DNA from: Heliocidaris tuberculata
Lineage: Eukaryota; Echinodermata; Echinoidea; Camarodonta; Echinometridae
Assembly: GCA_025618425.1 (NCBI GenBank)
Contig: CM046850.1
Coordinates: 28,428,987-28,492,986, forward strand
Length of the DNA stretch: 64,000 bases
Direction: 5' to 3'
Part shown: piece by piece, positions 13,268 through 64,000 of the stretch
How positions within the stretch are numbered: the first letter of the stretch is position 1
Layout: each line of letters starts with the position of its first letter
Notes under the pieces: generated by a model
Seen by the model: the letters and a program-made list of their open reading frames with translations, nothing else
Told to the model about the DNA's origin: nothing
Database searches by the model: none
Position numbers and translations under genes: made by a program

Positions 13268-14830
13268 GTATAGATTCAGATTCTTTTTATTGATCCATAT
13301 TTTTAAAAAACATAGAAATATGCCCTCCACTGGCAGTACATGAACAAAGTATTACAATAGAGTTACAATATAATAAATACCCACTTATGACATATAAATA
13401 GCATCCAAATTAAACATAAAAAAGAAATATAAACATCTGATAAATAAACATGTAATGCAATAAATTATATGATACAGAATTAACAAACTGTGAGCAGAGA
13501 GAGGAGAGAAGAGACAATGCGGGGCGGGAGAGGTGGAAGGAGAATATAAACAGAAAGTGGGCATGATGAATGAGGGGAAAAGAAAGAAAGAGAATTTGAG
13601 ATAGAAAGGGATTTAGACAAAATAAGATTGACATAAGTACAAAGCAATACCTGCATTAAAAACAATATATAATAATGATGAATACATCTAAAACATCTAA
13701 AACAGACCGGCTTTGTGGTGCGTGGCATACAGGAAAGGACAGAGGCAAGAATGGCCGGAGCACGAGGACGGAATATACGATATGAAATTTGAAGTTTGAG
13801 TTGAACTCATACAGTGACAAGACACATTAATGGGTTATTATCATCAACATTATTATTATTATTATTATTATCATTATTAATATTATTAATTATTAATTAT
13901 TATTATTATTATTATTATCATCATCATTAGTTATTATCATTAATATTATTATCATTATAATTATGATGATGATTGTTATTATTATTATAATTATTATTAT
14001 AATAATCATCATCATCATAATTATCACTATGATGATGATGATTAATATTATTACTATTATTTTAATTATTATTACTGATACTATTATTATTATTATTATT
14101 ATTATTACTACTACTACTATTATTATTATCATTATTATTATTATCATTATCATCATCATTATTAATATCATTATTATTATTATTACTATTATTATCATTT
14201 TATTATTATAATTATTATTATTATTATTATAATTATTTTAATTATATCATTATCACAACTATCAACTAATCATCATCATCATTGTCACTATTATCAATTA
14301 AGGGTTGAATCGCTGAAAGACAGGGCAAAAGTGTCAGCGTCTAACTTTGACATTATACATGTGAATTGCATTCGGTACAAAGGATTGTCTGAAGCGACAG
14401 CGGTTACACTTAGGTACGCGAAGGCGAATACCTGAGCGGTTAAATTCAAAAAGATGATGTAATGGATGTGATGAGTCATTCATTATTGTATGTATTTTGA
14501 GTAACGTACGTTTCTCATACAGAGTACTGATGGGGGGAAGATCTGACTGAATCAACCGTTGTGCAATTTTTCTGGGCCTTTCCAATTTTTTCTGATTTTG
14601 TTTTGAGAGATTACCAAAGATGCACAAAAAGTTGAATGTCAAGATACTCTGTATAAGAGATTGGTAGAACAGAACTAAGATCTTATTGTCAACACGAAAC
14701 TCCTTGAGTTTCCTCAGAAAGTATAACCTTTGACTCGCCTTGCCTGCTACAATTTGGGAGTTCTTATTCCAGTTAAGTTTATTATCAATAGTTGTTCCCA
14801 AGTACTTGAATTCAGATACTCCTATGGAGG
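13268..14830 (-). mobile_element. 5'-truncated LINE inserted antisense into the older LINE
   Basis: On the minus strand an intact stretch at 14801-14334 encodes the C-terminal region of a reverse transcriptase (about 155 residues). It includes LGTTIDNKLNW-like, RLYFLRKL and FYQSLIQSILTF blocks typical of Rex1/CR1/L2-like elements. Upstream in the same frame (to about 14830) comes FKYLGT, where the copy is truncated. The 3' part runs through a large ATT/ATC microsatellite and ends near 13268 at an AT-rich junction inside the older element. Target duplication is not clear. Confidence 0.65.
13843..14290. repeat. ATT/ATC compound microsatellite
   Basis: About 450 bp of interrupted ATT, ATC and ACT trinucleotides on the plus strand. 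The isoleucine-rich open frames across it are artefacts of the repeat. Confidence 0.9.
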
Positions 14831-15793
14831 CTTGAATTTATATTTTGTTGCTTCGTTTTACATGTTATGGTGTGGGGTCACACACTTTTAAGTCACCTTT
14901 CTAAGTTAGCAAATAATACAGAAACGAGCGATTAGATTAATTTCGCATTCCCAATTTAACTGTCCAAGCAGACCATTGTTTGAGAAACTTAATATTTTAC
15001 CAGTCTCAGAAATGATATCTCTGAATACTCTCCCTTTTATGTACAAGTATCAATCAGGAAATTTACCAAGATTATTTGATAACATGTTTACCCTTAATTT
15101 TTCTGTGCATTCGTTCAACACTCATCAACATAAAATGTTTCATCAACTTAAGTTGTTCTCTACTTTGGCCTTAGATTCATTTCGTATTAATGTATCAAAC
15201 AGTGGAATAGTCTAGACTGCGTATCAAACAAAATTCTACTGTCTCAAAATTCAATGTTTTGTGTAGAAAGAAATATTTTAATGATATGCTAATGTCGATG
15301 CATTCAGAGTTTATTATTCATAATAATTACCTTTCCTCCTAACTTTGATCCTTTTCTTTTCCTGTTATCTTATCCTGTCTCTTTCCCTTTCTCTCTCTGT
15401 CTTTCTAAATTTACTTTCTCTTCACTTATCTATTCATCTCCCCTTCATGTGCCCTTTTCTACTTTCTTTCTCTCTCTCTCACTTTATCACCTTCTTGTCT
15501 TTTATTTTCTTTATTCTCTCAATCCTTTGTGTGTACATGTCTGAATGTGTGTATTATGTTGTTCGGATGAATGATATTATGTGAATGATGTATGTCTGGA
15601 TTTTATGTAATATTGCTCTTTATAACTATTTTGTATTAATTTTGACCCTGTCCACAAGAAATTTGCTTTTTAAGGGTATCCCATCGATTTTAAATCTTGA
15701 TTTTCTTGCTGTTTAGATTTCCCATGTTCTTTCACATGTTTATATTGTTTTAAAATGGAAAATAAATCAATCGAAATGAATTGAATTGAAATT

Positions 15794-19200: not shown

Positions 19201-22200
19201 CAGCTCACAAAAACCCTACGTTTAGTATTCATATTACTTTTCAGAACCTGAACAGTGTAGATTTCATTTGTTAAAATGCCAATATTTAATGCCATAGCGA
19301 TTTATTTCACAAATCGGATCGCAGACCGATCGTAAGGTGTGCGGTGGCCTTACGAGACCTATTCAGTGAGCTTTCAGAATACCACCCGTACCTGTAATTT
19401 TGAACTCAGCTCTACTCAAATAGAAATCAGACTGATTTAGATCTGTGTATATGCAATCACCATGAACGGATTATGTTGATGCAATCAGTGGTGCAATATT
19501 CCGATCTCAATATGAAACAGGGCTACTACCACTATGCTGCATCTATACCCACCGACTCTCAAATCACATCGCGTATCCTCGTTCTATTTTCCAGTTTCGA
19601 AATCACTTGGCAATTAAAATCTCGTCAGTTTTGAAACTTGCAATTTTACCTTGTACAGCTTTAAAATCTTGTGATAAAAATGTATTATATAATTATTTTT
19701 GTATACCTTATAACGACCAAATTTGAATTTGTTGTCTTATCTTTATTTTTATTCCTTTCCTCGCTTTTAAAACATTATGCAGTCTACTTTCCATTCCCAT
19801 CCTCACAAGTAGGCCCTCGCCTTCAGATGTTATAGTGACGTCTATAAATTCTGACTGTTACATGTCGTATTTCGGATGGTTCTTTATTCGTAATTCCGTA
19901 AATAATATGGGGTTTATAATTCCAAAGTTCATAATTCCGATTTTTTTTTTTTTTTTTTCGAATCATGAACCTTCGGAAAAACAAACGTTCGGGAAAACGA
20001 GTGCCCCTCTTCCTTACAGGTTATTGGATAAACGATCTTGATCATCCATGCGTACGCGATTGTGAGACCAGTCCTGGACCAATGACGTGCGAGTATGACT
20101 GGACTGTAGAGTCCTATTACTCGATGTCACGTGCCTGCTACCAGTGTCCATTCACAGAGTTCGATTGTCATCGTCCGCACTGTGTACCTATGGCCGGTTA
20201 TGCTCGGCCCATCTACTCGGTCAACCGTCGGCTACCAGGACCGAGTATTCAGGTGACTGTAAGAGGGTTCAACTACACATGCTCCTGCGACAACTGCTCC
20301 GTGGTCAATTTCCTGCAATAACCGAAGTCCTGAAATCATCCCCTGTTCCAAATGCTATGCCTAAGCTAACCTTAACCCTAAACCTAACCTAAAGCCCGAT
20401 TGCAACCCTAAACCTAAGCTAAAACCCAGTCGCAACTTTTTCCCTAATTCTGAATCACTTAGGAAATACAACACGGGGCAATTGTCGCTGGCCAGTGCGT
20501 CGAATCGACAAACTTAGATAAAATCTCTTGTAACGTGGATCAAAATAGAAGACTTTTGAGTGATTATTTCTTCCTGAAAAAAAAAGACGCGTGACTAATT
20601 GAATTGATGAAATGAGAAAGAGTTCTTTTTATCTATTTCAAATGAGCTGAAAGGTTATTATACAGAGTCTAAAGTATGAGATAATGAATATGGGGGATGT
20701 TTTCGTTGGTTCATCAAAATGATTACAATATTCCCTTCAAATAGCATAGGTTTGATATGACATTATAGTAAGTTGGGTTGTCGCTCCTGACTGGCAAAGC
20801 TCTTTGAATACCATTATTCTTTAAATTATATATTTATGGTTATATCTATCACTGTAAAAGGATTTTACAAGGTCAGAAACAATTTTATCGGTTTGTTATT
20901 TGCATTGAAGGAAGGAAAAATCCAAAAATCCAAACAAAAGTTAATTTTAACATGTCTATCGGATAGACCTCTACGACTCGGACATTTACAAAGTCGGTGC
21001 GTACTACCTGTCAATGTCATTGTGTCTTCATTTAATTTGAGAACCTTTCTTGAGCATACATTAAAGAATCATCTTGGTAATCAATTCAACCTGAACCTTT
21101 TTTAATACTTTACATGAAAACAAATAACTGAAAAATGAAAAAAAAAAACTTGCGCAAAATGATCTGAATTGGTTCGTAGTTTAGTTTCATTTTATGTTTG
21201 ATTTCACATATAGCTATTCACAAATTATTCTATTGTCTTAAATATTTTTTTTTCTTTAAAATTCCATTCCAAGGTGTGTGAAAATGACATCATAAAGGTT
21301 CATGTACATAACAGAATGCAGAACGAAGAGGCTGAGACTATTCATTGGCATGGGTTTCATATGAGAGGCACCCAGCATATGGATGGGGTATCCAGAGTTA
21401 CCCAATGTCCCATCAATGCGGGCCATGACTTTACTTATGAGTTCACAGCAGAACAACCAGGTAAGTGCATTATTATTTTTGTTCACTTAACTCTAAATCT
21501 CTTGTAAGAGCATTTATCAAGATGATTCCTGCCCTTAACTGCATTCTCTATTCTTCATATACGTAGATGATAAATTTCATTTATGTAACTTATACTTCAC
21601 CTTTAAGTCTCGGCATGATGTCCTCAAATTTGCTTAAACTACCTGAGAATATATTTTCTCGTACAGTTGTACTTTGTTTTGACGACTTTCTTTTGACGGA
21701 AACTATATGTGGGAGCATCGTGGTATATTGTTGGATGTTCTCGACTCTCATACAAGCGATCCTGGGTTCTATCCTTCCTTGGTGGCTACATCTTTGGACA
21801 TACATGTTTAAGAACCGTGACAGAATTCAACTTTTTTACCGACATTTGTCTCGCTACACCCAGGTCTATAAAATGGTTACATGGCAACTATTCAGGGCCA
21901 TCAGGAAAAGCAGTATACATGTAATAAGAAGGCTCCATTGAGTAAATAAAGCCATATTACTATTATTGTTCTTATCATCTTCATCATCATCATCATCATC
22001 ATCATTATTATTATAATCATTATTATCGTTGTTCTATATCTTATCAACGCACACATTTACACCCACACCCACATTCCTTCATGACAGGTACGCATTGGTG
22101 GCATTCACACGCTGGTCTTCATCGTGCAGACGGTGTGTTTGGTTCGTTGATTGTTCGGCAATCTTCGGGAGCCGATCCCAACCGAGCGCTGTATGATAAA

Positions 22201-25200
22201 GATGATCCGCAACACGTGATCATTATCGACGAATGGTCAAAGGCTACGTCGATGACCATAGCTACTGCGGAGCAGAACGGAGTAGAGATTACTGTCAATG
22301 ATGGCATATTGATCAACGGCAGAGGTATGCCCAAATGTAGGGATGACATGTTTTAAGGAACAAAAACTTATTACTAAAGATGAAAGCTTATTTTTAAGGT
22401 GGTCCCCGAACCACCTATAAGGGGGGGGGGGGGGGGGGGATTGTTTTAAACTGCGAAATTATACGATTCCCTGTGTACCGTAGGAGCATTGGTCGTACTA
22501 ATCCCCCTCCACACACCCACACACCAACAGGCACACACTCACACACACACACACACACACACGCACACTCAGGGGCAGCTGAACCCTGGACAAGAGATGC
22601 CCCCCATGCATTGTCCGAGCCCGATGTTCCGACGCCTCTGAGTGTGTGTGTGTGTGTGTGGGTGTGTGTGTGCGTACACACTCACACTTTAGACGTTCGC
22701 GTCCGCCCGTGAGTGAAGAGGTTCTCTTTTGTACCAATGGGCCATCGAATATCGTTTTGAAGGAAAAGAATGTGAAGCATACTCACATTGTATGACCGTT
22801 CATAGATTAATGAGTTATCTATGGCGAGCGCTTACTAAGCTGTTTGGTATTTATCCTGTTTTAGGCAACATAGGAAACTTTTTAAAGTTGCTTTACAATT
22901 TTGAAATTCTATAATGAACCAAAAGGTTAACAGAAGGTGATTTTCTCTCCTTGCTCTCCTAGGGACAAATCAAGTATTCAGTAACACAGAGAAGACCAAT
23001 GCCACCGCTGATCATCATGTTGTGTTCGTCAAGTCAGGTCTCAGGTATCGCTTCCGCGTCATAGGTGCTTCCAATGATATCTGCCCGTTGACAATTTCAG
23101 TTGATGATCATCAGCTGACGGTGATTGCAATGGATGGTGCCCCAGTGAATCCAATTCATGTTGATAGGATCACCGTCTTTTCTGGAGAGAGATATGATTT
23201 CGTCTTAACCGCCGATCAGAAACCAACTAGCTATTGGATCCGGGTTGGTGGACAACTTACTTGTGCCCAACACCAGGTTTCTATTAATCCCATTTCTTAA
23301 CCCTATTTGATATAGGAAAGCTGTCATAGATCCCTTTCAATATATAGGATGGTATGACAGGTATCAATGGTGGACCAGCATCCCCCTCCGAGATGCAAGG
23401 ACAGATTAGATTATTTTTTTTAAATGGGAATATTATGATACTTGTCTTATCTAAGTGTATTAGGTGAATAATTACAATTCAAATAGTATTTTGGAGCTTG
23501 ACATTTTAAAAATTACAATACGCAGTTTAAAGGAAAATGGCAAGCCATGAGAATGCCCTTTGCAAAGTGGAACGACATGCCTACCTAGTCAGGGTAATCA
23601 CAGACTTTCTTTCTAAATGATATAAATGGAAGTGAAAAACGACAAACGTGCAGGCGTTGCAGGGTACAATACCACGCCCTATTTAGTCAAAGCTATATTA
23701 GTTAATTTGCTTTCGATTCAGTCAAATCTACTTCGTTTCTTGGTTATTTTAATTTTACTTAAAGTGCTATTGGATGTATGATAATGTTAATTAAATCAAC
23801 GTTTGGGATGGGAGAGATATTAACAAGATGGCTCTAGGGTGTTTGCATCCTCTCGACAGAACACTTTTAAGAGCGATTGCAGAATACAATAATTATAGTA
23901 TATACCCCTCTTTTAAAAAATGTTGATCTTATCACATTATTGATTCGTTCAGTGTATTTGAAAACAGACAGTATCGACTTTCGGGCCTGTAGGTTTTGCT
24001 GTTTTTAATAAACTATCTCAATTAAAACTACTAATTTTATCACTTTTGTCCTACCTTCACCCTCACAGGAAGTTGGTATTTTACGCTATGCAGGCACACC
24101 TTCCGGCTCAATACCAGACAGGGACAGGAACATAAGAGCACAAGGCAGGCATCTAAATCCTGTGGCAGCACAACGTGATCCTGAGACTCTTTTAGTGTCA
24201 GATATCACTGAAGCTGGTAAGTCTACTTTCTTGATACGAACCATTTTATTCACGCAAACTTCATCCCGAGTCTGTAAGGGCAGGGGCGGATCCAGGATTT
24301 GTATAAGGGAGAGGGCACACAAACATGCAGGATTGTCAACTTTGGAAAACTGCTTTTTTTAAAGTTCACATCTATATTCCATAATCCTTTGAAACATTTT
24401 ATGCAGTCATGCATAATTGCAGATAATAATAAAAAAAACTTTAAAATACAACATACAGAACAAAAATTAAATGAAATTTCCAGGCAGAACCTTATCAGAT
24501 CACAAACGGTTAGAACTGTATATTGTACAGTATATGATATAAAGCGTGAGTTAATAAAAAGGAAACCCAGATTCAACCCTAAATATCATTGCAATCAGTA
24601 CATATAAATTTATTAAGATACTCATATTGTAGCCTATCATGTTTCCTTTAATTTTACACCTTGATCAATAAAATCCGACAATGGACAGCTGAACAGTAAT
24701 AATTTTCCTGATTCATGTCAAATTGCCTCTGCCCAAGATTTGAATGAATGGACGGTAAACCCAAGGTTGGATGAATATCTCCTTTCCAGTTGAATGCATT
24801 CGCCTATAATGAAAGTAACTATTGAGCAACATTCAACCCAAACATGAAAAAGACGATTTTGACATGCTTTTTTAAAATTGGCACTGCTCAGTCATCCATG
24901 ATCGCATTTTGGTTAGCAGTCTATCAAATTAAAAGACATTATCAACTATCATACCATTATGATACATTTCAGCGATTTTACTTGGTTTTCAAAAGATATT
25001 GGGGCTTGAATATGAATGTCCTTTCAATTGACTCACAGTGTATACTGTAAAGTATATACTCAGCACGCATAGGAAATGCGCTAAAATGCCAAAGTGGGTG
25101 AAGGAAGCACGATATAATATTTGTATGAAGGTTGATGAAGAAAAAAAAAATGTATAATCGATTGAGATCTGAATTTATTTTCAGATGAAAAACAAGATGA

Positions 25201-33597: not shown

Positions 33598-35750
33598 ACA
33601 GTAGACGACTTTGTTGGATGAAAATTGGGATATGGTCATACAACTGAATTAATGGATCTTGCACTATCATTCATTTATGTGCATTCAAATTAGCGAATAT
33701 ACCAGTTGGGCCAAAGACTCATAAATTGAATACACATGCAAACTGTGAAATTGGCCGGAAAATCTATATTTTCCCCAATTCTGGACAAAGAATGACCAGA
33801 ATGTGAAAAATATTCCCTACTTGGGCATTAAATTGCGTAAGTGGGATCCACAAGTACTCTTATGATAGCATCCATTCGGCCGTAAATTTTAGGGATGAAT
33901 TTTTATTATTAGTGATTTAGTAAATTTACGATGCTGATGGCTTACGTAATGATCAAAATAATGTGTAGTCAGTGCCTTAGAAGTCACGTTAAAATGCAAA
34001 TCGAATCGAATATCGAAAATATTGCCCTTAAAAGGACCATAATACCCTCGTCTTCGACTCGGGGCAATATGATGCTCTTGCAGGCAATATATTCTGATAT
34101 CCCCTTCAAGGCAATCCAATATTATATAAATATTCATCAAAAAGTAAAGTTACATACTTCAAACCTAACGGGGATACCGTCCATCAAAGCAGTTATATTC
34201 TCCATATATTCGCATCTAGATGTGATTCCTAGATAATAATTGCGTACATAGGTGATCGTTGGGGAAAATTCATAGACTGGAAAGGTTGCCATCGTTACGT
34301 ATTGTTCGATCGGAATTGCACGGATCATAGAGGGATCACCAACCCTATGGTCTCTGTAAAGTCCTGGACTGTACTGCATGATGGATATCGGTTTGTCTGC
34401 TGATACAACCAACATTTCTTGAGTTTGAATATCGACTGTCTCGTAATCACCCATGTTCAGCTTCACAACCACGTCGTCGTACGAAACAGTGGTATTGTCA
34501 CGACCAGCTATAACCTGAAGAAGATACCCCGCCGTTCGCGACGCCAACGGACTAATAACATACACCTTTCCCCATGCAGTGAAAGGTGCAAGCTGCTCTG
34601 CTATGTGATCACAAGCGCTTACATTTGCAGGAACGTTGGCACATTTCGAGCCGACACTTACAGCGAGAGAAGTATTTGCAAGGACACGTGATCCTGTAAT
34701 GTTGATGAACTGTGGGAGTAACTGTATTGTTTCATACGGGAGAAGGGTATATCGAATGATGTCACCTGCGTAGAACTGATCATTCTCAAATTCAACACTA
34801 GACTGAAGGTAAATTTCAACGTATGTGTTTTGCTCCGATGCAGAAATTGAAATGAAACCTCTACCACCGTTATAATTGTTTTCCCTGGTCATCGTCGCTA
34901 TGAAATATTCCTGTCCGAGATATTGCTTTGGAATCACACTGAATGTATCTGAAGAGCGGTTGTAGATATTGTATGCTAGGACGAATATGTCACTGTCCGA
35001 TGTGATAACGACTGTAGAGTTGATCTTACCAGATACATTCCTATATATGAGGGAGTTTGGTAACGGATAATCATATGGTCCGGACCCAGACAGCAAGGTG
35101 ATGTTGACATCGAGTGATATCCCGCGAACCTGGATATTAACAGTAATGTTTTCATCTGATACTCCTTGAAGGACCACTCCGATAGACTCGGAGGTGTTGA
35201 AATAGATATAATTGGCCACGGGAGCGAACACAAATTCCCTACCACCATTGCCGGAGAGGACTGACGTTGCACATATTCCTGTAAATCAAAATAGAAACAT
35301 TATATTAACAAAAAGTCATGGAATTCAAATTCTTTTTTTTATACCATGTTATTAAATATATATGCATTGCCTGTATATAGGGAGACAAACTTCGAATCTA
35401 TATCGTCGAGGTGATTGTAATGACTATTTCCTGAGGGGCGCAGCCCCAAAGGAAATTGTGCTATTTCAGTGGCTGAGACCTCATAGTTTTAGCTGGTGTC
35501 TCGAATAACTGTAGGCCTTGTGTTTGTCTTATATCCATCCAGTTTGACTATTTACATTTTGTAAATAAACAAATACATATCTAAAGAGATGCAATGACTT
35601 CTCGTCAATAAGATGACATTTTTTCCAGCCAGCAAGCGAAATCACAAACGCGCCTGAGCCTGAGCCGTTGTTCCGCAGGGGGAGCCCTAGAGCAGTGGCG
35701 GATCGGGGGGGGGGGCGGGGATCAAAAAGGGGCAAAAAAAATGCTGAGGA

Positions 35751-44601: not shown

Positions 44602-44637
44602 ATTCAAGTTCGTTTGATTTTAAATAAATACAAATAC

Positions 44638-44767
44638 AAATAATAATAATAATAATAATAATAATTATTATTATTATTATAATAATAATCATAACAATAA
44701 TTATAATAGTGATAATAATAATACTAATACTACTACTACTAATAATAATGATAATAATAATAATAAA
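44638..44767. repeat. TAA/ATT microsatellite, retrotransposon target
   Basis: Mixed TAA, ATT and ACT trinucleotides abut the 5' end of the R4/Dong-like element; a short TAA run (46488-46505) follows its 3' end. Confidence 0.85.
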
Positions 44768-46487
44768 GTGCTTGGAGAAGTCACTATCAAGAGAGGAATC
44801 TTTCAAGGAGATAGTTTATCTCCACTATTGTTTGTGATGGCTATGACCCCATTATCACAGGTGCTAAGGAGATCCAGACTTGGATATGAATTCAAAAGCA
44901 AGGCAAAGATTAATCATCTGTTATACATGGATGACTTGAAATTATTTGGGAAGTCGGAGCGCAACATAGATTCTCTTATCAACACTGTTCAAATCTTCAG
45001 TGAAGACATCGGTATGCAGTTTGGGCTGGATAAATGTGCAGTGATCACTCTACAGAGAGGTAAACAAATCAATGGTAGCAGCTTCAGAATGCCAAATGGT
45101 GAAGAGATCAGAGCAATGGGAGCAGACGATACTTACAAATATCTAGGAGTACTAGAGGCAGATCGGGTGAAACACCAAGCTATGAAGAAGAAGACTGAAG
45201 CCGAATACATCAGAAGAGTTCGAAAGGTGCTCAAATCTAAACTCAATGCAGGAAACATAGTCAAAGCTATCGATACATGGGCAGTGGCCCTGTTGAGGTA
45301 CGCTGCAGACATAGTAGACTGGAACCAACAGGAGTTGGATACTTTGGACAGAAAAACAAGGAAATTGTTGACTATGCATGGGATGTTCCACCCCAAGTCT
45401 GATGTAGATAGGCTATATGCGCCAAGAGAGCACGGAGGACGCGGACTCATGGGAGTAGAGGAAACTGTAAGGTATGAAGAACAGAGCTTATACTGCTATA
45501 TTGATGGAAAGATGGATGAAATTATGACTGCCATTAAAGGGTCTATGAAGAAAGGAAAAGACTTGACAGCAAAACAGCTCAAGGCTGATCAGAGAAATGG
45601 GAGACTTGAAGGATGGAAAGGAAAGGTGATGCACGGACAACATCTAAGACAGACAGAGGAATTTGCGGCACCAGAGAGTTGGCAGTGGTTGAAAAGAGGA
45701 AACCTGAAAAGGGAGACTGAAAGTTTGTTAGTTGCTGCTCAGGACCAGGCTTTGAGAACAAACTACAGGAAAGCAAAAATTGAGAAACAGGAAACATCAC
45801 CATCATGCAGAATGTGCCATAGCAAAGATGAAACGGTAATGCATCTTGTGAGTGAATGCAGTAAAATGGCACAGAGTACAAGGGAAGGCATGATAGAGTG
45901 GCTGCTGCAGTCCATTGGGGTCTGGCGAAGAAGTATGAACTACCGCATACAGACAAATGGTACGATCACAGGGCGGATCCCGTGATCGAGAATGAAGATG
46001 TAAAACTTCTGTGGGACTTCAACATCCAAACAGACAAGGTTATACAGGCTAGAAGACCAGACATCATTCTAACGAAAAAGAAGGACAAGGAATGTCTCAT
46101 CATAGACATTGCAATTCCTGGAGACTGCAGGACGTGGAGCAAGGAGGAAGAAAAGATACAAAAGTACAACGACCTGGCATGGGAACTAAGAAGGATATGG
46201 AAGGTGAAGACGAGAGTCATACCAATAGTGATCGGAGCCTTGGGAACAGTGACAACAAGACATAAGAGCTTCCTGGCTGATCTAGGAGTCGACGTATCGT
46301 TTGAAACCATACAGAAAGCAAGCCTGCTCGGGACAGCTCATATTCTGCGAAAGGTCATGGACTAGAATGAAAAGGAGAATTACGAATAAGATGAGGACTT
46401 GTTGAAACAAAGACTAACCCTAAATTTCTGGATGAAATCCGGTTACTTCTTAATTTACCAACTGATCATTAGGTTGTGGACAAATCG
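44768..46487 (+). mobile_element. 5'-truncated R4/Dong-like non-LTR retrotransposon
   Basis: The open frame at 44768-45985 begins inside the reverse-transcriptase domain (IFQGDSLSPLLF), then YMDDLKLF with the catalytic Asp pair. It continues to a CX2CX8HX4C zinc knuckle (about 45808-45861). The next frame, to the stop at 46365, carries the restriction-like endonuclease: RRPDIIL and, 14 residues after that Asp, a second acidic residue in LIIDIAIP. A frameshift near 45870-45890 separates the two. About 120 bp of 3' UTR follow. The domain order, with the endonuclease C-terminal to the RT, marks the older non-LTR lineages, and TAA-repeat flanks are the known target preference of Dong-type R4 elements. 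The N-terminal half is missing, so this copy is inactive. Confidence 0.85.
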
Positions 46488-52477: not shown

Positions 52478-52627
52478 CATTCATCGGCTTTTAACCACTT
52501 TTTTCCACAGGAGCAACAGTCCACGAGGCTGTAATTTTTTGGTCATTCTTTATTTTTTGTTTTCTTGGTCTCGTTGGTTGTCGGTCTCCTGAACCTTTTC
52601 GGATTTTCAGTCTGCTGTGCTGCTGGG

Positions 52628-55600
52628 CTACTCCATTCCCTCAATAGTGGTAGCATAAACATGCTCCGGTTCATCACCTTTTGTCTTGTGTGTCATCTGG
52701 TTCATATATACCAGGTCCGACGGTGGAAGATGAGGGGTTCTTGCACTTTTCGATGAAGCCATTGGCACTGTCAAAAGGAGAGTCAAATCCTCGTAGCTTT
52801 GGTCTTGTTGGGTTCTACGCTTTAAATCAATATAGAGATCTGGAGTTTCTACCTTGGTAGTGGTTGACATTTTACGTCTGATGCCACAAAATGCAAAAAT
52901 ATAATGATGGTGGTAGTAGTATAATTGTACTAGTAGTAGTAATATAAAATAAGGTCAAACAAAAATATTATTATTTTTAAAATGAGTGCAAGCAAAAGAG
53001 TTATATATTTTTATTCGCTCGTGGTCATTTACACTGTTTTTATCATAGTTTTTACCCTTTGGCCGTCGTTAATAGTAAATATGTGGTTTAGTCCCTGTTC
53101 GAGGTTGAAAGGGTTTGATGGTTTATTTTACCTGACTGCTAAGAAAGCATGTGTATACTTGTAAGTAAGCAACCAGGGGACCCACGGCTTTAAGTCCTCT
53201 CCGAGGGATTTGATAATGAGGATTAATGCCTTACCAAAAGGCACTAGCGCATCCACTTGGTTTCGAACCCGGGTCACCCAGTTACGAGACCACTGCTCTA
53301 CCACTGAGCCATCGCGCCTCATCATACAGAGGGTATATAAAAAAACGTTCAACTTTTGAAAAATCTTTCAAAATTACATTTCAAAATATTTAGAAGATTT
53401 TTTCATGTCGTTAGATGCCCTATAGTCTCATCTATCAAGTGCCACTAACAAAACAAATTTTCGTTCACGCTTGGGCGAACACTGACTATTTTTGTTCAGA
53501 GTGTGAAAAATGGCTTGCGCCAAACTGAAAGAAGAGGGAAAATTAAACCAGCAGTCCGAATAAGTACTCCCATTCAAAAAAATTGCTCTTTTGCATGAAT
53601 TTATGATTATGTTATGATAGTCTAGGATTTTTAAGTCAATTTTCTATCATAATTTTAATGATATCATTACTTTAGGCATGGGTGCGAATTAATAATGTGT
53701 AAATACTTCAAGATCTTTTAAGCACAGTATTCACAATTTACAGAAACATCAAATCCACATGTCAGTCATTCAGTCAAGAAGAAAAGTACCAAATTAATAC
53801 ATATTCAGATCATTCAATCAATCAATCAAAAAATCAATTAATCAATCAATCATTCAATCAATCAACAATCAACCCAACAATACTGTGCATCAACCGATAG
53901 ATCAGTCAGTCAGTCAGTCAGGCAGTCGGGCAACTCTGTCAATCAATCACACTGTAATTTAACAAATTATTAACAAGCACATCAAAGCACTTCCAAACCA
54001 GTCATTCAATCGAGAATGCCAAATTAATCAATCAATTTTCGATCAATCAATCAATAAATCATTCAATTAACTATGTAATGTGGTTTTGATGTGTCTGTCT
54101 ATTGTGAATACTGTGCTTTAAAAGATCTTGAAGGTAATTACTCATTATTGATTCTCACCCATGCATACAGCAATTGAAATTATTAAAATTATGATAGAAA
54201 ATAGACACAAATTTCCTAGACTATCATAACATAACATAATCACAAATTTATGGCAAAGAGCAATTTTTTTTTTTGCATGTGAGTACTTATTCGGACGGCT
54301 AGTTTAATATTCCCTCTTCTTTCAATTTGGCGCAGTCATTTTTCACACTCTTGACAAAAACAATCAGTGTTTGCCCAAGCGTGAACCAAAATTTGTTTTG
54401 TTAGTGGCACTTGATAGATCAGACTATTGGGCATCTATCGACATGAAAAAAAATCTTCTAAATATTTTGAAATGTAATTTTGACAGATTTTTCAAAGGGT
54501 AACTTTTTTTGATACGCACTGTAGTTAAAGCAAATACTGTATCACAAGCACTCTTTGTGTGTAGTTTAAATCACCACCATGAATTCGGGCAAAATATTTC
54601 TTTTTGCAGAAGATATGTGTTTCATTCTTAATGAAATGCAATATAAAACATTACGGCTTCTGATATTGATACTGCCTCTTTTCACAAGAAACACAGAAGA
54701 TATACAAAGAGGTTAGAAACATGTACATACATAAGGAAAGAAAATACATAATATCTTACTATCTTGATTACCTAAGGTGAATATGCATGAAGGTTATAGC
54801 TACAGCATACACGAGCAAGACTGAAACACCAGCAACCAGGCTTCTCTGTATCCCTGAGAAAAGACAAGAAATCGATTACTGAAAATATATTATTTCATTT
54901 AACAATAAAACAATCCTATTTTGTGTGTTAAATGAACACAAATGATTTTACTTTACTTTACTTCACGGCTTATTCTATGATTGTTCTTCTCATCAGGATC
55001 GTATGAATAGACCTATACATACAAAGACTGCTTGTGATACAATATTTGTTCTCACTATGACTGACCAAATATGAAGTACGTTTACCTTTCAAAAAAGGGG
55101 GTACCGAATAACTTGGTATCATTGAATTTTGAGGGTTTTTTATGCTGGATTGCTTGGTTTTAAGAGAAGTGTATACACTTTATATCAGAAATAGTTACTC
55201 ACAAAATGAGTACACCATTTACAAACAGTTCAACGTTCAGATGGAACTTTTGACATAGTTGTATGTAATATGTGTTTTCACTGAAGAGCATTGAGCCTAA
55301 GTAACTCTGACAGATCGAGTATATCTTTATTACAGAGTTAAGTGGGGTTTTTTTTTGGTTTTTTTTTTCGATTGCAGTGGCTTAGATTACGTCGGATCAG
55401 TAACATTTTGCTTAGAGTGAACTGACTTCAGTGAGCTCCTATTTTACGAACTTTGTAGAGAAAATTAATAATTTCTTAGCTTTCCTGTAAATTGGCTACA
55501 AATACTAGATGGAATTGAAGCTTCAGTTGTTGACGCTTCCGTAGTGGTGACTAGTGTCGGAGAACTTGGTGAAGAAAATGATTCACTGTTAAGCATCCCT

Positions 55601-58600
55601 AAAACCGTACTGGAAGTAGTGGTTGGAGTTGATGCTTCGGTTGATGACGGTTCCGTAGTGGTGACTAGTGTCGAAGAAGTTGAATGCGAAAAGAAAAATA
55701 ATGACCAGATATTCCGACATTAACCATGTTAACGTTCCTGAAAAATGTGCGCCCCAGAAATGAAATGCTTTTCTTGTCCATTATTGATTTTTTTTAATAT
55801 TACAGGCACAATGGAAGAGCAATGTGCCCGAGCAAAAACTGTTCGAATATATCTTGATTATAACGTTGGGCTTCCATATTTGCTTACGATACACCGGATC
55901 ATTCATATTTTAAGAAAGGAAAACTCTCTTCTGTGAGTTATTTTAATAAACTTTGTGAAGTAAACGAATAACTCTTTAGCATACATGTGCAATGGTTGCA
56001 AATATTTGATGGACTTGATGCTTCAGTTGTTGATGCTTCCATTGTGGTGACGAGTGTCAGGGAACTTGGAGAAGAAAACGATTCATTGTTTTGCACACCT
56101 GTAAACTTACTGGAAGTAGTGGTTGGAATTGATGCTCCGGTTGATGGCGGTTCCGTAGTGGTGATTAGTGTCGAAGAAGTTGAATGCGAAAAGTAAAATA
56201 ATGACCAGATATTAACGTCACTGAAAAATGTGCGCCCCAGAAATGAAATTCTTTTCTTGTTCATTATTGAGTTTTGAAGATACTATACCCGTATGCGAAT
56301 ATTTTTAGATACATTGTATTTCGTATTCTGTTGATTTTTTGTATTTTTTGGGGTATTTATTTATTCTCCGAAATTCACAATAAAAACAAATGAGCATAGG
56401 AACATAAATAGGAAAATATAAATAAACATACAAAACGAATATATCATACAAGGTAAAAGAAAAGAAGAACAAAGATAATAAAAATCGGAAGGACACCCAG
56501 TTCAGCTATGCCCATGGACATCACTGTTCTTCCATGGGGTCCAAAGTGATTATTTTATATTTATATAACAGGAAGACGTAACTGGATTTTTGAAATAATT
56601 AACAGAATTCTTGCAGAAATTTCCAAAGAAGAAGAAGGGGAAAAAAGAATTAATTAAGGGGTGGGGTGAAAAAAAATAAAAAAATACAGTATCCAATTCA
56701 ATTTTTACAGATCAGGGAAGAAGGCATTGAGCCTATGTAAGAACACTTTGAGACTACACGGGACCTTAAGATTTGCGGGGAGATTATTAAACTGAGAAGC
56801 ACCTCTGTATGAGAACGAACGTTTACAATAGTCTGTTTTTGGTTTTGCTAACATTAAGTTTCCATGGGACCTGAAAGAATAATTGTAATGGCTACTAGTA
56901 CGTTGGAAAAATGTTTTTAAATACGGAGGGGCAAAATCATTTAAAGCCTTGAAAACCATAGTACTGAGATGACAGCGACGTCTAATTGTTAAGGATTTCC
57001 AACCCAATCGAGCATGCAACTCCCGGATAGACACATGACTGTAGGGACTAATTCCTAGTATAAGTCTACATGCTCTGTTTTGAAGTGTCTGTAATGAGTC
57101 GATGTATTTTGCACAGGCTGATCCATATACTATATCACCATAGTCAAAAATTGGAAGAATAATGGCATTATACACAATTTTCATATTAGTCAGATCAATA
57201 GAATGACGCAATCGAGCCAATAAGCTTATAAGTTTACTTATCCTAGAACACATATTAGCAATATGTAGATTCCACTTTAAACTTGGATCTAACAACATGC
57301 CAAGATATTTCGTTGATTGTACATGTTTGATATTTATCCCATTTACAATTAAATTCAACCTACTACATTTACCTATCATTCTACGTGAGCCAAATAACAT
57401 GCTTACCGTTTTATCACAGTTAAGACTTAATTTTGAATCGCACAACCAGTTGCTTATTCTTTTAAGTTCAGAATTCAACACAGACTCTATAGTTGAAATG
57501 TTCATTAATCAATTCGTATGCACCCACAATTACATAGGGTTTTCATACTTATTTCTTTTATACGAGTATATGAGGCTGAGTCCAGTTACAGATTCATATC
57601 ATAAGCAATGATTGTACTGCAATCCCACAAAATAAAAATTTTGGAATAACGGTGCTCTAGCCCTCACTTCTCATTTCCCTGCTACCACTAGGCCAGTTTT
57701 TAATTTACAAGATCATAGCAATAAATGATATTTCAACATATATTCGCATACCTAATTCAACTGTAACGTTGAATGAACACGATGCATTGTTACCAGCACG
57801 GTCAGTTGAAGTGAATGTGTAAGTTGTTGTACCAACAGGAAAATCATCCCCTGGGAATACGAAGGGGTGGAGCGTTTGAGATACAAATCTACCAGAGTTA
57901 TCAGTATTATGTACGCGAAAGAATGTGCTTTGAACTGTGGTTTGGGTCTGGTAAATGTCATCTGGACAGACAATCGTAGGAGGCTCCCGATCTGTTAAAG
58001 ATGTGAACAAAAATCATAGAATACTAATGTTTTTTTTTTTTTTTTTTTTTTAATTATTTGAAAACATTAAGTGCTTTTAACAAGGAATTTAAACTCTCTG
58101 ACGTAGGTGCCAGAAGCGGGGGAGGGAGAGGGGACAGAGAGGGCAGTTGCCCTCCCCCAGTCATTCAAGTGGGGGGTGGGATGAAATCGATCCCCCCCCC
58201 CCTCGCAAGAAAAATAAAAGGAAATTTACATGTAATGATTTCGTATTACAACGATGTATAATTGTAATGTGTAAAATTCTCACTCGGTCGCTTATAGACG
58301 CAATGTTTCTTAACAGTATTTTAGAAACCCTGTCTATAACAGGAGCCAGGAGAAAAGGGGTAAGATGTTTACTTCCATCTATAGGGGGGGGGGCAAAATA
58401 GTCCCCCCCCAAAAAAAAAGGGCCTTTTCAATTTGCGGTATTGTGATCAGCTTTCTATTGCTCTAAAAGGCGAGGTTTCACCACTCCAACACCTAAACCT
58501 CAGTTGGTCTCCCTCGTATTAACCCTTTCATGACAGGAATTATTCAAGGGCTAAATTGATCACATTTTGTTCTTCAAATTGGCAACAATAATATTTTTCT

Positions 58601-61600
58601 TTTAGTGCTACATGGTTCCAATAAAATGTAATGTCTTTGAAAACAATATACATGGTTAGAAACTTTGTCGAAAAGTTGAAAATATGGCCATTTTCAATAA
58701 AAACTGATTTTGAATCTCTCAATGTGTTGCCAATCTAGGGATTTTAAAGCTTAATCTCCTTTTCGAAATTCCTGGCATCAAACGCAATATGGTCATGTAA
58801 CAAAAATGGACGCAGTGAGTGCAGAAGTTTTTTCACTTTCTACTCATGAATCTGGTATAATTTTTAGAGCTCTTAATCAAAAGTTATTAAGCCAAACCAC
58901 AAAATGTGGCCAATTGTCTCGAAAGGGTTAAAGATAAGAAAGATGTTTTTGATGTACAACGATGGATAATAAGCTTTTTTCCCCTCCAAAATGTAAGGCC
59001 TCAACATTCCAACAATAAAAGAATTTACGCTCTCTCGAGGATTAATAGGAGGATTGAATCTTGGACTTTACACACTCTTGTAAGGCCCCGAAGTGCGTGG
59101 GAGGGCAGGTGCTTCTCTCTGCCAAAAGAGAAGGAAAGATTCTAAAATACGTGGTTTCAACATGAAATAATCTAATTTTCTGACTTGATCGCGTCTCTTC
59201 CTCGCATTTCCATAAATGACTGTTTATTAACATTGTACTGCAGGAACCCAGTCTACATCAAGACCCCGAATGTGTCGGGCAGGGCTTTCCTATTATATTA
59301 AGGGATAGGGGCAAAAGCGGTTTTTTCCCCCGCCCCCTCTGAAGATTATTATCTATATTTGAAGCCTGGACTATATCTTTAATGTTATGTAAATCATAAT
59401 ATTGTTATGACTTGCCTGTGTGTATAAAGTTTCTATTAAATGCAAATTTCAATATCATGAAAACATTTTTTTTTTTTGGTCGGTCGCTACGCTCCCTCGC
59501 CTGATACTCCACTAATTTAAAAGTCATATTCTGTTCTTTTAAAATATTATCGTTCTCTTTAAAAAAAAAAAAAAATTGGAATTATTCTGAGATATGCATA
59601 AAACTTGCTTTAGAAAGCTGTGATCCAATACTACGAAATCAAATTTTTAAAAATATTTTAAGGATGTTTTGCATGAAAACGAGTGAATGAGTACGAGGCA
59701 GGGATGAAGTGCCAGCCACCATTCCCTCGATTTTTATAGTTTCGGGCAATCTCTACCTCATATCTGGGCAGCGAGGTGCCCGAATATTCTCACATTTGGG
59801 CAGCGAGATGCACATATTCGGGGAGCGAGGTGCCCGAATATGTAATGTCTGCAAATGCTTCAAAACCAAAAGAGTGTAAAAAATTTGAGCGCTCGCTTCG
59901 CTTGGGCGCTCGCTTCGCTTAGAAACTATAAACAACCCTATTTCAGGTCTAATGAAAAACTCTAAACCTCGCAATTTCGAAATATCAAGACATGTGAGCT
60001 GTAAGTAGGTAGTAAGCGTTCGAAACGGGCCCCCATAACCCGTTTCAGGTGGAGCCCCTAGAGTGTTTACCCCTTCCCCCCTCCCCCACAAAGCTGGAAC
60101 CCTTCTGGCGGGCCTGCTTATTGATCATAAAAAAATTGCTTATACTAGGTGTGATAAAGAAACATGGAAAATTTTCACAAAACTTACTCCAAATGAATTT
60201 GAAATCCATTAACTTTACAATGTAAAAACCTTAAATTGGTAGAAGTTATAAGTTTTGAGTTATTAATGAACAAAGGTTTCAATTTTTTTAAACACTTACA
60301 ATAATCTAAGCGCTAATATGATTTGAAGTAGTCACTCCGACCCTCTGGAATTCGCTCCCTCCGCACATACGCCAGGCTTCAAGACGACAGACATTCAAGA
60401 CCCTTCTTAAACCCTCACTGTACTGGGGGGGGGGGGGGGGGGGCTCCCCTTGACAAATTCCGCCGCGCATTTCTATCCCCTCCATTTCATGCCTCATCAC
60501 TTTCTGACTGTTTTTTCTTTTAAGTCTTGCTCATCTTTTGACATCAAGTTTACGAAAATCGGTCATACCGTTACCGAGTCATGTGACCTTGTATCAGTGG
60601 CGGATTTAGGGGGAGGGGCACTTCCGGCCCGTGTCTCCCCCCCCCCCCCCCCTTTTGAAAGAAAATTGTACATTGTGCCCCATCTTTTTTTCAATAGTGC
60701 CCCCTTTTTTCAATTGTGCCCCCCCCCCCCCCTTTGGAACTGATAACCTTTTTTTTTCTTCTTTTTTTTTTTTTTTTGTTGTTGTTGGCTTGTCAGAGAT
60801 TTCTGGAGGCAAACTGGACCCCCAAAATCTGATAACCCCCCCCTTTTTTTTTGCTTGTTAGAAAATTTTCTGAGATTTGTGTGCCCCCCCCCCCCTTTTA
60901 CAAAAGAAAAAAAAAACTTCTTGCATTAAAACTTTGTCTCCAAGGCCTTTCTTTACTTGATTATTAATTGAAATGTATATATTTATGCATGTAATGTGCA
61001 TACATGATTATAATATCAAATAAAATCAAGATTTACATAAAAAATAACGATGGATTTGAGTTCTTTACGCGATTCTCGAGGTCCATACAAAATTTTCCGG
61101 CAATCGGTCATGTCGCGGCCGGGATCAGAGCCCCCCCCCCCCCCCCAAAAAAAAAAAAAAAAAAAGTCAGAGAGAACTTGAAATAGCCCATACATTAAGG
61201 GTTAAAACCTACCTGTTTTGTTTACAAATCTCTATCTCTTTTATTAGTTATGTACCCTATAAGTACTGATATTTCTGTAATTACCTTGTATAAATTATAT
61301 TTTACTATATAGTACCTAATAAAGATGTAATGTTAGTACATTTCGGTTACCAAATTGTAATTTTAATGTAATAATATTGTTATCTTTCTCGTAATAATCT
61401 TTTAAAGAAGGAAACAGTTATCAGGATGAGATTTACAGACCTGTTATATTATGCTTTTCCCTAAAACTCGGAAATAATTATACAATTCTAAATGAGTTAT
61501 AAAATTTTTTTAAACATACGTAGGAATATGTTACCATCCAGATGAATCGCTTATATTATAAATATTCATCCGTAAACATGATGAATTAGTGTATCAGGAT

Positions 61601-61896
61601 CATACCTTCTACAATTACCGTTGCTTCCGTGCATGACTTCTGTAGTGTCCCATCAGATATCGTGATAGTGACGGAATATCCAGGTTGTGTTAGTAGGGAG
61701 ATGGCCAGTCTAGGGTCATTCGTACTGCCATCATATCTTCTCACCATTGTGATATTACCATAGGGAACATAAGTCACAGACTCGGGTGGATAAGCGAAGT
61801 TGAATAGAAGGTCTGGGTAGGTGTAAAACGGTTGACCAGGATCAGTTCCTACGGTGAGATCCATGGTAGGCGGACAGACGATTGGAAGCTGAAGTA
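52628..61896 (-). CDS. HYR-domain transmembrane receptor with ITAM-like tail (5' partial)
   Basis: Minus-strand exons: 61896-61606 (HYR-like 1), 57991-57752 (HYR 2), 56098-55985 and 55664-55506 (Ser/Thr-rich stalk), 54853-54772 (membrane helix) and 52877-52628 (tail). The first five begin in phase 1 and the first four end in phase 1; the helix exon ends in phase 2 and the tail exon completes that codon. HYR 2 has PPTIVCP, DNSGR, FPVGTTTYTFTSTDRAGN and a closing Cys; HYR 1 keeps both Cys (IVCPP, KSC). The helix is about 23 residues without charges, followed by RRK. The 83-residue tail has Tyr16 and Tyr29 in YIDL-x9-YEDL, an ITAM-like pair, plus YMNQ at 58 and Tyr75. HYR is an Ig-like fold found in adhesion and complement-linked proteins. 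Ligand unknown. The signal peptide and any further ectodomain lie upstream. Stalk-exon borders are the least certain. Confidence 0.75.
53160..53318 (-). mobile_element. tRNA-derived SINE in last intron of the HYR receptor gene
   Basis: Minus strand from 53318: GCGCGATGGCTCAGTGGTAG (A box), a CTCGTAA anticodon-like loop and GGGTTCGAAACC (B box). The body includes GCCTTTTGGTAAGGCATTAA. The tRNA part is well preserved, but the fused body indicates a SINE. Confidence 0.75.
53325..54523. mobile_element. 1.2-kb palindromic TA-flanked element (Tc1/mariner-like foldback)
   Basis: Arms of about 410 bp (53327-53745 and 54105-54521) are near-complements, for example TGCCACTAACAAAACAAATT against its inverse near 54395. 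The outer ends are CAGAGGGTATATAAAAAAAC and its counterpart ending TTTGATACGCACTG, each bordered by TA. The centre (about 53810-54070) is an AATC/ATTC simple repeat. It has no coding capacity and begins six bases beyond the SINE. Confidence 0.8.
56600..57520 (-). mobile_element. 5'-truncated LINE in HYR receptor intron
   Basis: An intact minus-strand frame (57505-56705, 266 residues) covers the end of a reverse transcriptase. It contains NCDKTVSMLFGS (thumb side), KYLGMLLD, ILPIFDYGDIVYGS, LQTLQNRACRLILG and the terminal SFSYRGASQFNNLP. This order is typical of CR1/Jockey-like elements. The catalytic palm is absent. The A-rich 3' tail lies near 56640-56690. It sits between HYR 2 and the stalk exons and is not part of the receptor. 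Confidence 0.75.
58519..58931 (-). repeat. 413-bp TTAA-flanked MITE family, copy 3 (reversed)
   Basis: TTAA at 58519-58522 and 58928-58931. It opens CCCTTTCATGACAGGAATT and closes CAATTGTCTCGAAAGGG, the reverse of copies 1 and 2. It lies in the intron between the two HYR exons. Confidence 0.85.
59680..60120 (+). repeat. GGGCAGCGAGGT repeat, copy 3
   Basis: Three blocks of (T)GGGCAGCGAGGTGCCCGAATAT-like sequence and a doubled CGCTCGCTTCGCTT, in the same orientation as 5405-6145 but more diverged. Confidence 0.55.
60331..60426 (+). pseudogene. C-terminal scrap of a LINE reverse transcriptase
   Basis: A 32-codon open frame reads TLWNSLPPHIRQ, then FKTLLKPSLY. This is the WNxLPxxIR...FKxxLKxxL signature at the very end of many CR1/L2/Jockey-like polyproteins. 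It is followed by a poly-G run at 60425-60443. Confidence 0.65.
60596..60900 (+). repeat. hAT-like copy with homopolymer runs, ends unclear
   Basis: Begins CAGTGGCGGATTTAGGGGG and contains GGCTTGTCAGAGATTT and GCTTGTTAGAAAATTTT, as in other family members here. Several poly-C and poly-T tracts interrupt it, and no right terminus or target duplication could be fixed. Confidence 0.5.
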
Positions 61897-64000
61897 CTGT
61901 AATTAAACACGATCAACCCAAGGCATTTTCAATAGCCTTGTCCATCACCTAGATAAATGCGCGAACATTACATGATTTCTATAGGATATGGGCAATTTCA
62001 CGGAAAATGTTCCCTTGCCCCAAATCACAAAAGTGGCCGGATAACTCGATAAATATTTCTTCTATAACGACAAATTTATTATCAAGCAATAATTGAGCTC
62101 AACAAGCTCTTTAATGTGAGTGATAAAATGATAAAAAGAGTGAAGCATGTTTAAGCATGATTTTCTATTAAAGAACACATTCAAAGAAAATCACAAATAT
62201 GATAAATAATGTATCACTAGAAACTGGCAAGTTAACAGATAGCAATCGTATCAGTTTAAAGTCAACTACATATCAGGTAATTAAACAATAATAAAATAAA
62301 ACTACCTCCCAGCATCTGCGATATACAAGCGCTTCGCCAAAAAAATGACAATGTTTCAATGACGTCAATAAAGGGAACAATCCTGTCCAAGCAGACGACG
62401 TCCCATAAAGAATGAACATAAGTGCAGTGCAGTTATTTCTCAAATTATAAAGAATTGAGTGTATTCAAACGTGCCCATATTTCACACCATTCTAAAATGG
62501 GAATGAAACAGATTCTGATTACTGAAATCTTTTGTTTGTAAATATATAGGATGAGGGTTAATGAACAATCAAAGAAACCACACTTTCAAATTGAAAAGCC
62601 CGCTGAATGATTGCAAGGACGGTATTCATCCCTCATTCAACGCCGAACGTCCAGCGGTGTATGCAGCTGTGAATGCAATGGCGTCTATTTTGTTTACAAG
62701 CAACTGATTCCTTTATTCTTGTAACGCTTCATTTTCCATCCAAATAAACCCATGCACGGGGTTTAGAGTGAGGCAATATATGTATTAAACATAATAGACT
62801 AATGCTAGTGAAGTGAAATAACTGAAGAGAAGATGACAAAACAGGCACTGAAAATATGTGAGATGTTATGGGACATCGTCTGCTTGTGCAATTAACGTCC
62901 TGTCTTTGACGTCACACATTTCAGCGGCTTTCGGAGAGCTGTTCAGGTGCTATGTCGGGGCTGTATTTTAGCAATTTGTAATTGATAATAATCATTACTT
63001 CGAATGTTTGCAAGTGTCGAATTTTGACAAACTTGTCCGGTCTAAGCTTCACCTACGCAATAATGAAACTTAAGTCAGTTTTAAAAATCAATGAATATCT
63101 ACTTTAAAAAAACCTCACTTTTCAGTCAAAATGTGGCAACATTTTTTGTCAAAAAATGCAATCTTTGGCTTTCATTATTTCACGCCACAAGCACATCAGA
63201 TTTGATTTTTTTAATAGTAAATAATTGTGATGAATGGATACAAATAACAGGTTTGCATGATCAAATGAACACTATAAAGCGACACTATAGGGGGTTTATT
63301 ATATAAAAATAGGAGAAAAAAGTGTCTTGCCCGCCCCCCTTTTTTTTTAGCTCTGATAAGAAAATGTTCAATCTAATTGTTATAAAATATTTCTTTATGT
63401 TATAGGAGTATGGTTATAAGCTTCTCTTAATAACTTAATACCTAAATTAGACCCATTGAACCCTAAAAATCAGATTTTTCAAACTGTTCACAGGAGTAAT
63501 AAATTCTTATCCATTTGGTGTCATGTCCGTTACGGCTACTAAGAGTCCATTTTCTCTTCAACTATTCAGTGATATAGTATGAAATTTGCTGTGTCTGATT
63601 CAGTAACTTAAATATGTTTTAGGACTCTTGCTTTTGATCAAACTGACTTAAGTAATCAAAAAAATTGTCTGACTGTCATGTGCATAACGCTGCTGGAATT
63701 GAAATCGCCCTCGAGCTGATTTCTATATGTTTCTATATGTAAAAAAAAGAGAAGAAAAGAAAAAAAAACAACGAACAGATGTTTGAATTATGTATATAAT
63801 TATAATGATTTTTAATAGGGAACATGCTATTTACAAGCTCCGCTTCTTTGCTAGTTCCCTTTCGTTACCTTTTCGATTATCATTATCAAGAAACAATTGA
63901 AATGTGTACACCTCTCTCTGTTACTAGTATAACATTTATTTCAGAAAACAATATGTAAAACAAAGCTCATATGCGTTATGTCTGAATGATGAGTTTCTTC
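61897..64000. other. Upstream of visible HYR receptor exons; contains a palindromic element
   Basis: No additional receptor exon with a matching donor could be recognised. About 62335-62940 is a palindromic repeat: CAAGCAGACGACGTCCCATA on the left pairs with TATGGGACATCGTCTGCTTG on the right, along with blocks around TGACGTCA. Beyond 62940 the sequence is AT-rich without a recognisable gene. Confidence 0.5.

Follow-up and report, generated by a model that had tools for sequence, protein, structure and literature searches.

We analysed a minus-strand gene, with exons between positions 52628 and 61896, in a stretch of 64,000 nucleotides (nt) from the echinoid Heliocidaris tuberculata (assembly GCA_025618425.1, contig CM046850.1, positions 28,428,987 to 28,492,986; this whole stretch is called the window, and positions are counted from its first letter). 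The exons very probably belong to a gene for a hyalin-like protein that passes the membrane once. The window would hold the 3' part of this gene, and the predicted protein ends in a tail which is not that of its family and which carries a pair of YxxL tetrapeptides resembling an immunoreceptor tyrosine-based activation motif (ITAM). Our tentative reading, held with somewhat less than even confidence, is that this one-pass protein signals by itself through the ITAM-like pair.

Six predicted exons of a hyalin-like gene

The preliminary description of this DNA had joined six minus-strand exons in frame, and their coordinates, AG/GT borders and phases were all verified. They comprise an exon for a domain marked by LPIVCP (61606..61896, 291 nt) and an exon for a HYR domain (57752..57991, 240 nt), both of phase 1-1 with AG/GT borders; two Thr/Ser-rich stalk mini-exons (55611..55664, 54 nt, and 55506..55550, 45 nt), also of phase 1-1 and each with its coding frame the best of three; a transmembrane exon (SLVAGVSVLLVYAVAITFM) at 54772..54853 (82 nt, phase 1 to 2); and a terminal exon of 82 codons (52628..52877, 250 nt including the stop), which completes the sequence RRK and continues with YIDL-x9-YEDL, YMNQ and YATT up to a TAG stop. 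An AATAAA poly(A) signal lies 74 nt past this stop (52549..52554, minus strand). The phases of the six exons are compatible, and the joined exons give 320 residues ending at TAG without an inner stop. Since the first four exons are of phase 1-1, each of them could be skipped or repeated without loss of frame. An Arg split across the last junction is completed by the terminal exon (HLR-RK), the helix has a mean Kyte-Doolittle value of 2.26 over 19 residues, and the helix exon has strong splice sites (12 of 13 pyrimidines, 6 of 8 donor letters). A signal peptide and the first (VTCNS) domain were not found in positions 61897-64000, the 2.1 kb from exon 1 to the window end; the 5' part of the gene presumably lies beyond the window edge.

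Scans of the window for comparable exons were run with thresholds looser than the observed values, yet set after these had been seen, and gave four helix-exon candidates with matching phases on both strands and 83 tail-exon-like open reading frames (ORFs). The helix exon at 54853-54772 has the best splice sites of the four candidates; of the three others, two exceed it in hydrophobicity and are located in repeat-like sequence. A poly(A) signal follows 19 of the 83 ORFs and an ITAM-like pair occurs in eight, and both are found together in a single one, at 52877-52628. By a codon model with a small training set (734 codons of exons with known homologues, exons 1 and 2 included), the tail frame scores first of six frames and is equalled by 2 of 182 other open stretches, and the helix frame has the best score of its three. 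Thus, the scans and the codon scores make the gene model, and with it a real gene at these sequence-predicted exons, well supported; its splicing, the topology of the protein in the membrane and the presence of a signal peptide farther upstream, outside the window, are predicted.

Both ectodomain exons had been described beforehand as HYR or HYR-like, and a profile check against Pfam PF02494 bore this out for one of the two. Exon 57991-57752 encodes a HYR domain (E=8.1e-16, 58.6 bits against a cut-off of 21.7), with 54-61% identity to the matching copies in Strongylocentrotus and Lytechinus and 45% to the Diadema protein P0020. Exon 61896-61606 stayed below detection, matching no Pfam family at E<=1 when taken alone; by tblastn it is 57-61% identical to Strongylocentrotus and Lytechinus relatives (64% in one partial match) and 41% to P0020. 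The P0020 counterpart at the same position did not match PF02494 either, and sister domains of the LPIVCP domain in P0020 (E=0.0033, 18.2 bits) and P0010 (15.7 bits) matched it under the cut-off. Profile-profile comparison of the exon 1 family with a HYR set gave a probability of 11.8% and E=6e-4, the latter for a single comparison. This exon encodes a family-specific 'LPIxCP' domain, for which a weak HYR likeness is plausible though unproved. Its AlphaFold model, built from a five-row alignment, reached a predicted local distance difference test score of 45.8, too low for use, and searches of solved structures returned nothing convincing (best E=0.21, CELSR1). NCBIfam gave no match to the window protein, and in the Pfam scan of the part seen HYR alone was above cut-off, with no SEA, CUB, TSP, EMI or EGF/NIM domain.

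A protein search with the spliced product gave 8 matches among 1927 candidates and, with longer proteins admitted, 59 among 5108 (both at E<=0.1); most of the 59, many of them bacterial or unnamed, were checked for the tyrosine motif alone, and 11 newly found sequences were read. The top matches are ten echinoid proteins annotated as hyalin or hyalin-like, namely P0001, P0002, P0003, P0009, P0011 and the fragment P0004 of S. purpuratus, P0010 and P0013 of L. pictus, P0012 of L. variegatus and P0020 of Diadema antillarum. Their best tblastn copies of the LPIxCP-HYR pair have E values from 5e-31 to 5e-16 in Strongylocentrotus and Lytechinus and of about 1e-10 in P0020. The order of domain, HYR, stalk, helix and tail is complete in six relatives, and the window stalk resembles that of P0013 (VEIV...STEAST). 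P0003 (isoform X3) differs from P0011 (isoform X2) by an entire domain pair together with a portion of the stalk, which fits the symmetric exons. The initial proposal of a single predicted chain with HYR ectodomain, stalk, helix and tyrosine tail is supported, and clear relatives of the ectodomain exist among echinoids. In the domain-pair tree the window pair falls, without resolution, among the rows of S. purpuratus and Lytechinus; its end branch measures 0.38, and long branches were flagged (left out were P0004 as a fragment, the second P0011 unit as identical to that of P0003, two incomplete P0009 units, P0019 and the non-echinoid matches). By these comparisons, the window holds a divergent paralogue, to which none of the relatives found is a close orthologue.

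The tail and its tyrosine pair

The tail counts 83 residues from the split Arg, and its tyrosines 16, 29, 58 and 75 stand in YIDL, YEDL, YMNQ and YATT, with nine residues between the first two tetrapeptides; the positions and the spacing agree with those described beforehand. The helix before it is without a charged residue, which means that no adaptor chain would be needed. Tyr58 (YMNQ) fits pYxN, the rule for Grb2-type sites. None of the four tyrosines fits NPxY or an immunoreceptor tyrosine-based inhibition motif by the consensus in PMC9405953 (here and below, papers are cited for excerpts of their text), which argues for an activating tail.

Six of the 11 echinoid-named proteins (P0003, P0010, P0011, P0012, P0013 and P0020, with P0003 and P0011 being isoforms) are models that reach the family helix and tail. 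In all six, this tail has the form IFGIGxKEPxK...GASRHGVATD and lacks a YxxL pair; over the C-terminal 100-125 residues from the helix on, it is strongly conserved from Diadema to Lytechinus. P0001, P0002, P0004 and P0009, the last of them a cut model, end before a tail, and in P0019, a longer HYR protein of Diadema setosum, the tail is of a third kind and lacks the pair too. Since the relatives carry another tail, the ITAM-like one is not a family feature; it is divergent or replaced, being either new to the window paralogue or too fast-evolving to follow. A family tail hidden elsewhere in the window was considered as well, and the best case among the matches listed (10 of 15 residues at 19903-19859, neither preceded by a helix nor followed by GASRHG) was put down to chance.

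Several results weigh against an ITAM-like function of the pair. Its conservation in relatives had been set in advance as a test by the preliminary description, and the pair was found in none of the six tailed models, while YxxL/I-x6-12-YxxL/I does not occur anywhere in the 11 echinoid-named proteins (it occurs somewhere in 8 of the 64 proteins collected, none of them echinoid-named). An ITAM conserved across the family is thus rejected, since the relatives have another tail. No homologue of the window helix and tail was found among 379 candidates (proteins of about 275-875 residues) at E<=10. Shuffling revealed no detectable homology between the window tail and the family tails either: of 2000 shuffles, 193 scored as well for P0013, 385 for P0003, 406 for P0012 and 1324 for P0020. 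The idea of a disguised family tail was dropped on this result; a weak hint remains in the last 30 residues, which taken alone give 1.6-4.6% against the family tails (the helix alone gives 8-11%). The pair exceeds chance only moderately (about 1-3% chance). A pair at spacing 6-12 is held by 1.1% of shuffled tails, and the 38 pair matches in 25,508 residues of window open stretches of at least 60 residues, sorted by eye, comprise 28 microsatellite translations, the window tail and nine others, the nine corresponding to a chance of about 3% per tail length. An acidic residue at -3 is the rule for ITAM tyrosines and is present at Tyr29 only. The spacing of nine falls outside the strict consensus of x6-8 (PMC12058738) and within the broad one of x6-12 (PMC9405953). 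Finally, the decay of mini-exons and the transposons that fill the introns would also be compatible with a degenerating paralogue.

The loss of the pair in relatives is not a full refutation, as the window gene is divergent and P0001, P0002, P0004 and P0009 are without a usable tail. Of the self-signalling activating receptor that had been proposed at the outset, the single predicted chain stands, whereas a conserved ITAM does not, the relatives lacking the pair. An activating, ITAM-like use of this tail may still be predicted from its sequence, though we regard it as rather doubtful.

The main rival explanation, in our view an unlikely one, takes the YxxL tetrapeptides as YxxPhi sorting signals which, together with the dileucine-like DLTLLL, would send an adhesion receptor into endocytosis and turnover rather than recruit a kinase. 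Both YIDL and YEDL fit YxxPhi, and the pair is followed by a stretch resembling (D/E)xxxL(L/I), the dileucine rule. However, sorting needs less than four spaced tyrosines, two YxxL nine residues apart and one pYxN; YxxPhi motifs, for their part, also occur within ITAMs (PMC9405953). Less probable again, and second in rank, is a gene that stops mainly or only at the helix exon, where a retained intron with TAA at the donor would yield a tail-less or lipid-anchored product, and the tail exon would be rare or an unrelated ORF. Indeed, a retained intron would bring TAA directly past the helix-exon donor (54772), P0001 of S. purpuratus also stops soon after its stalk, in a hydrophobic stretch, and the missing tail homologue points the same way. 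This sits poorly with the poly(A) signal behind the tail stop, as neither AATAAA nor ATTAAA occurs in the roughly 460 nt that follow the TAA past the helix exon, as well as with the good donor, the matching phase and the RRK stop-transfer made by the helix-tail join, and with the tail codon score. Moreover, in P0001 and P0002 alike the stalk is followed by Gly-Lys-Asn-Ser-Leu, the residues expected from a retained GGTAAGAAC donor, and to judge from the proteins only, these two look like retained-intron, incomplete gene models.

The least probable of the three rivals is a degenerating or fragmentary paralogue without function, with a drifting tail and a pair that arose by chance. Two of four stalk mini-exons are without acceptors, large repeats occupy the introns, the first domains of the relatives have no match in the 2.1 kb that separate exon 1 from the window end, and the tree holds no close orthologue; on the other side, all six exons are open with intact splice sites, and the HYR score is well above its cut-off.

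If the protein does signal through the ITAM-like pair, ligand binding by the HYR-type domains would cluster the receptor, and a Src-family kinase would phosphorylate Tyr16 (LYIDL) and Tyr29 (SYEDL). The phosphorylated pair would bind both SH2 domains of Syk or Shark/HTK16, and this binding would start PLC-gamma, calcium or actin responses, to which Tyr58 may add a Grb2-type adaptor. Every one of these steps past the amino-acid sequence is what we infer. A single Syk-like gene is present in invertebrates, in addition to HTK16/SHARK (PMC10253181), the tyrosine kinases detected in the egg transcriptome of a sea star include Syk and HTK16 (PMC11593052), and the single-chain ITAM receptors Draper and Megf10 recruit Shark and Syk (PMC8092387). 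The site could be the coelomocyte, in engulfment, or the surface of the egg or embryo; an immune or phagocytic role is without support here, and gamete or cell-adhesion roles are equally open. The boldest version, and an unlikely one, is that a hyalin-family protein swapped its conserved tail for an ITAM-like one, wiring HYR domains to Syk or Shark on coelomocytes or eggs, which would be a second, independent invention of the Draper/MEGF10 type.

Comparison with known receptors

The closest systems are the hyalin-like proteins and hyalin isoforms X2 and X3 (P0003, P0010-P0013, P0020), which have the LPIxCP domain, HYR, Thr/Ser stalk and single helix in common with the window protein but possess their own conserved tail, without a YxxL pair and with no detectable homology to the window tail. 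ITAM chains of the T-cell receptor and Fc type usually pair with separate ligand-binding chains. They share the YxxL pair in the tail, although at a strict spacing of 6-8 (PMC12058738) as against nine in the window protein. Draper, MEGF10 and CED-1 are one-pass single chains as well, and their own tails contain an ITAM in Draper and Megf10 and a single YxxL in CED-1 (PMC8092387); they differ by EMI and EGF/NIM ectodomains and a tail NPxY, neither of which is present in the part of the window protein seen.

In strongylocentrotid urchins, HYR repeats are also found in EBR1 (PMC8403831), which differs by CUB/TSP repeats and by having no predicted helix, and in EBR1_5, where they are under selection and accompanied by a transmembrane and a SEA domain (PMC5521101); SEA, CUB and TSP are all absent from the window part seen. 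The Monosiga kinases RTKB and RTKC combine a HYR ectodomain, one helix and tyrosine signalling (PMC10263333, PMC3584944), but carry a kinase domain of their own, whereas the window tail has none. The architecture had been put forward beforehand as not known to be characterised. This holds for HYR with an ITAM, no such protein being found among the literature matches listed (titles and abstract starts of open-licence papers), and fails for HYR joined to tyrosine signalling, in view of these Monosiga kinases. By precomputed Pfam labels, one of the 59 matches, P0042, is a protein-kinase receptor of the Monosiga type with a HYR ectodomain, and P0043 of Antedon mediterranea joins a HYR ectodomain to a seven-helix receptor with GPS and SEA. 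To our knowledge, the activating receptors of echinoderms are poorly known.

The HYR module was discovered in hyalin, a protein of the extra-embryonic matrix of echinoderms (PMC3723904). If our tentative reading is true, this module would be linked directly to the tyrosine switch that immune and engulfment receptors use. The protein would then also be a candidate receptor for the calcium pathway that runs through Src-family kinases and PLC-gamma in echinoderm eggs and whose signalling molecules are only partly known (PMC11593052). Should the ITAM reading fail, the analysis still outlines an echinoid family whose tail (GASRHGVATD) is strongly conserved and on which no study was found in the literature searched, with one paralogue whose tail is different.

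Intron contents and neighbouring genes

Two decayed copies of the stalk mini-exons start at 56164 and 56050 (56006..56164, minus strand, the lower limit placed by their register with the intact copies). The decayed and intact pairs are spaced by 500 nt and are 83% identical, which points to duplication of a repeated unit. By eye, the acceptor AG is lost in both decayed copies, and they were rejected as real exons for this reason; for the copy at 56164, an upstream AG leads to a wrong phase and a stop. The introns further contain, outside the protein, an ORF of 267 amino acids (56705..57508, minus strand), which has no Pfam match at E<=0.01 and which we take to resemble the C-terminal part of a reverse transcriptase of a long interspersed nuclear element (LINE). 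A fold-back (inverted-repeat) element, again outside the protein, occupies 53341..54510 (minus strand) of the intron between helix and tail, with seven arm pieces that are 83-92% complementary. After it, at about 53320-53250, a tRNA-like head of a short interspersed nuclear element was noted by eye; the ARAGORN scan reported no tRNA.

Besides the intronic ORF at 56705-57508, retrotransposon remains occur at 44624-45985 (plus strand; RVT_1, E=2.7e-14) and 14337-14837 (minus strand; ALKBH8_N, E=9e-14), and the ORF with the ALKBH8_N match presumably reads as the tail of a LINE reverse transcriptase. About 17 kb downstream of the HYR gene and on the same strand lies a long IgGFc_binding exon (34137-35285, minus strand; PF17517, E=1.1e-51). 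Exons of a laccase-like multicopper oxidase are present on the plus strand at 21214-21507, 21946-22356 and 22941-23300 (Cu-oxidase_3, E=2.7e-20 and 0.0025 (below cut-off); Cu-oxidase, E=1.4e-23).

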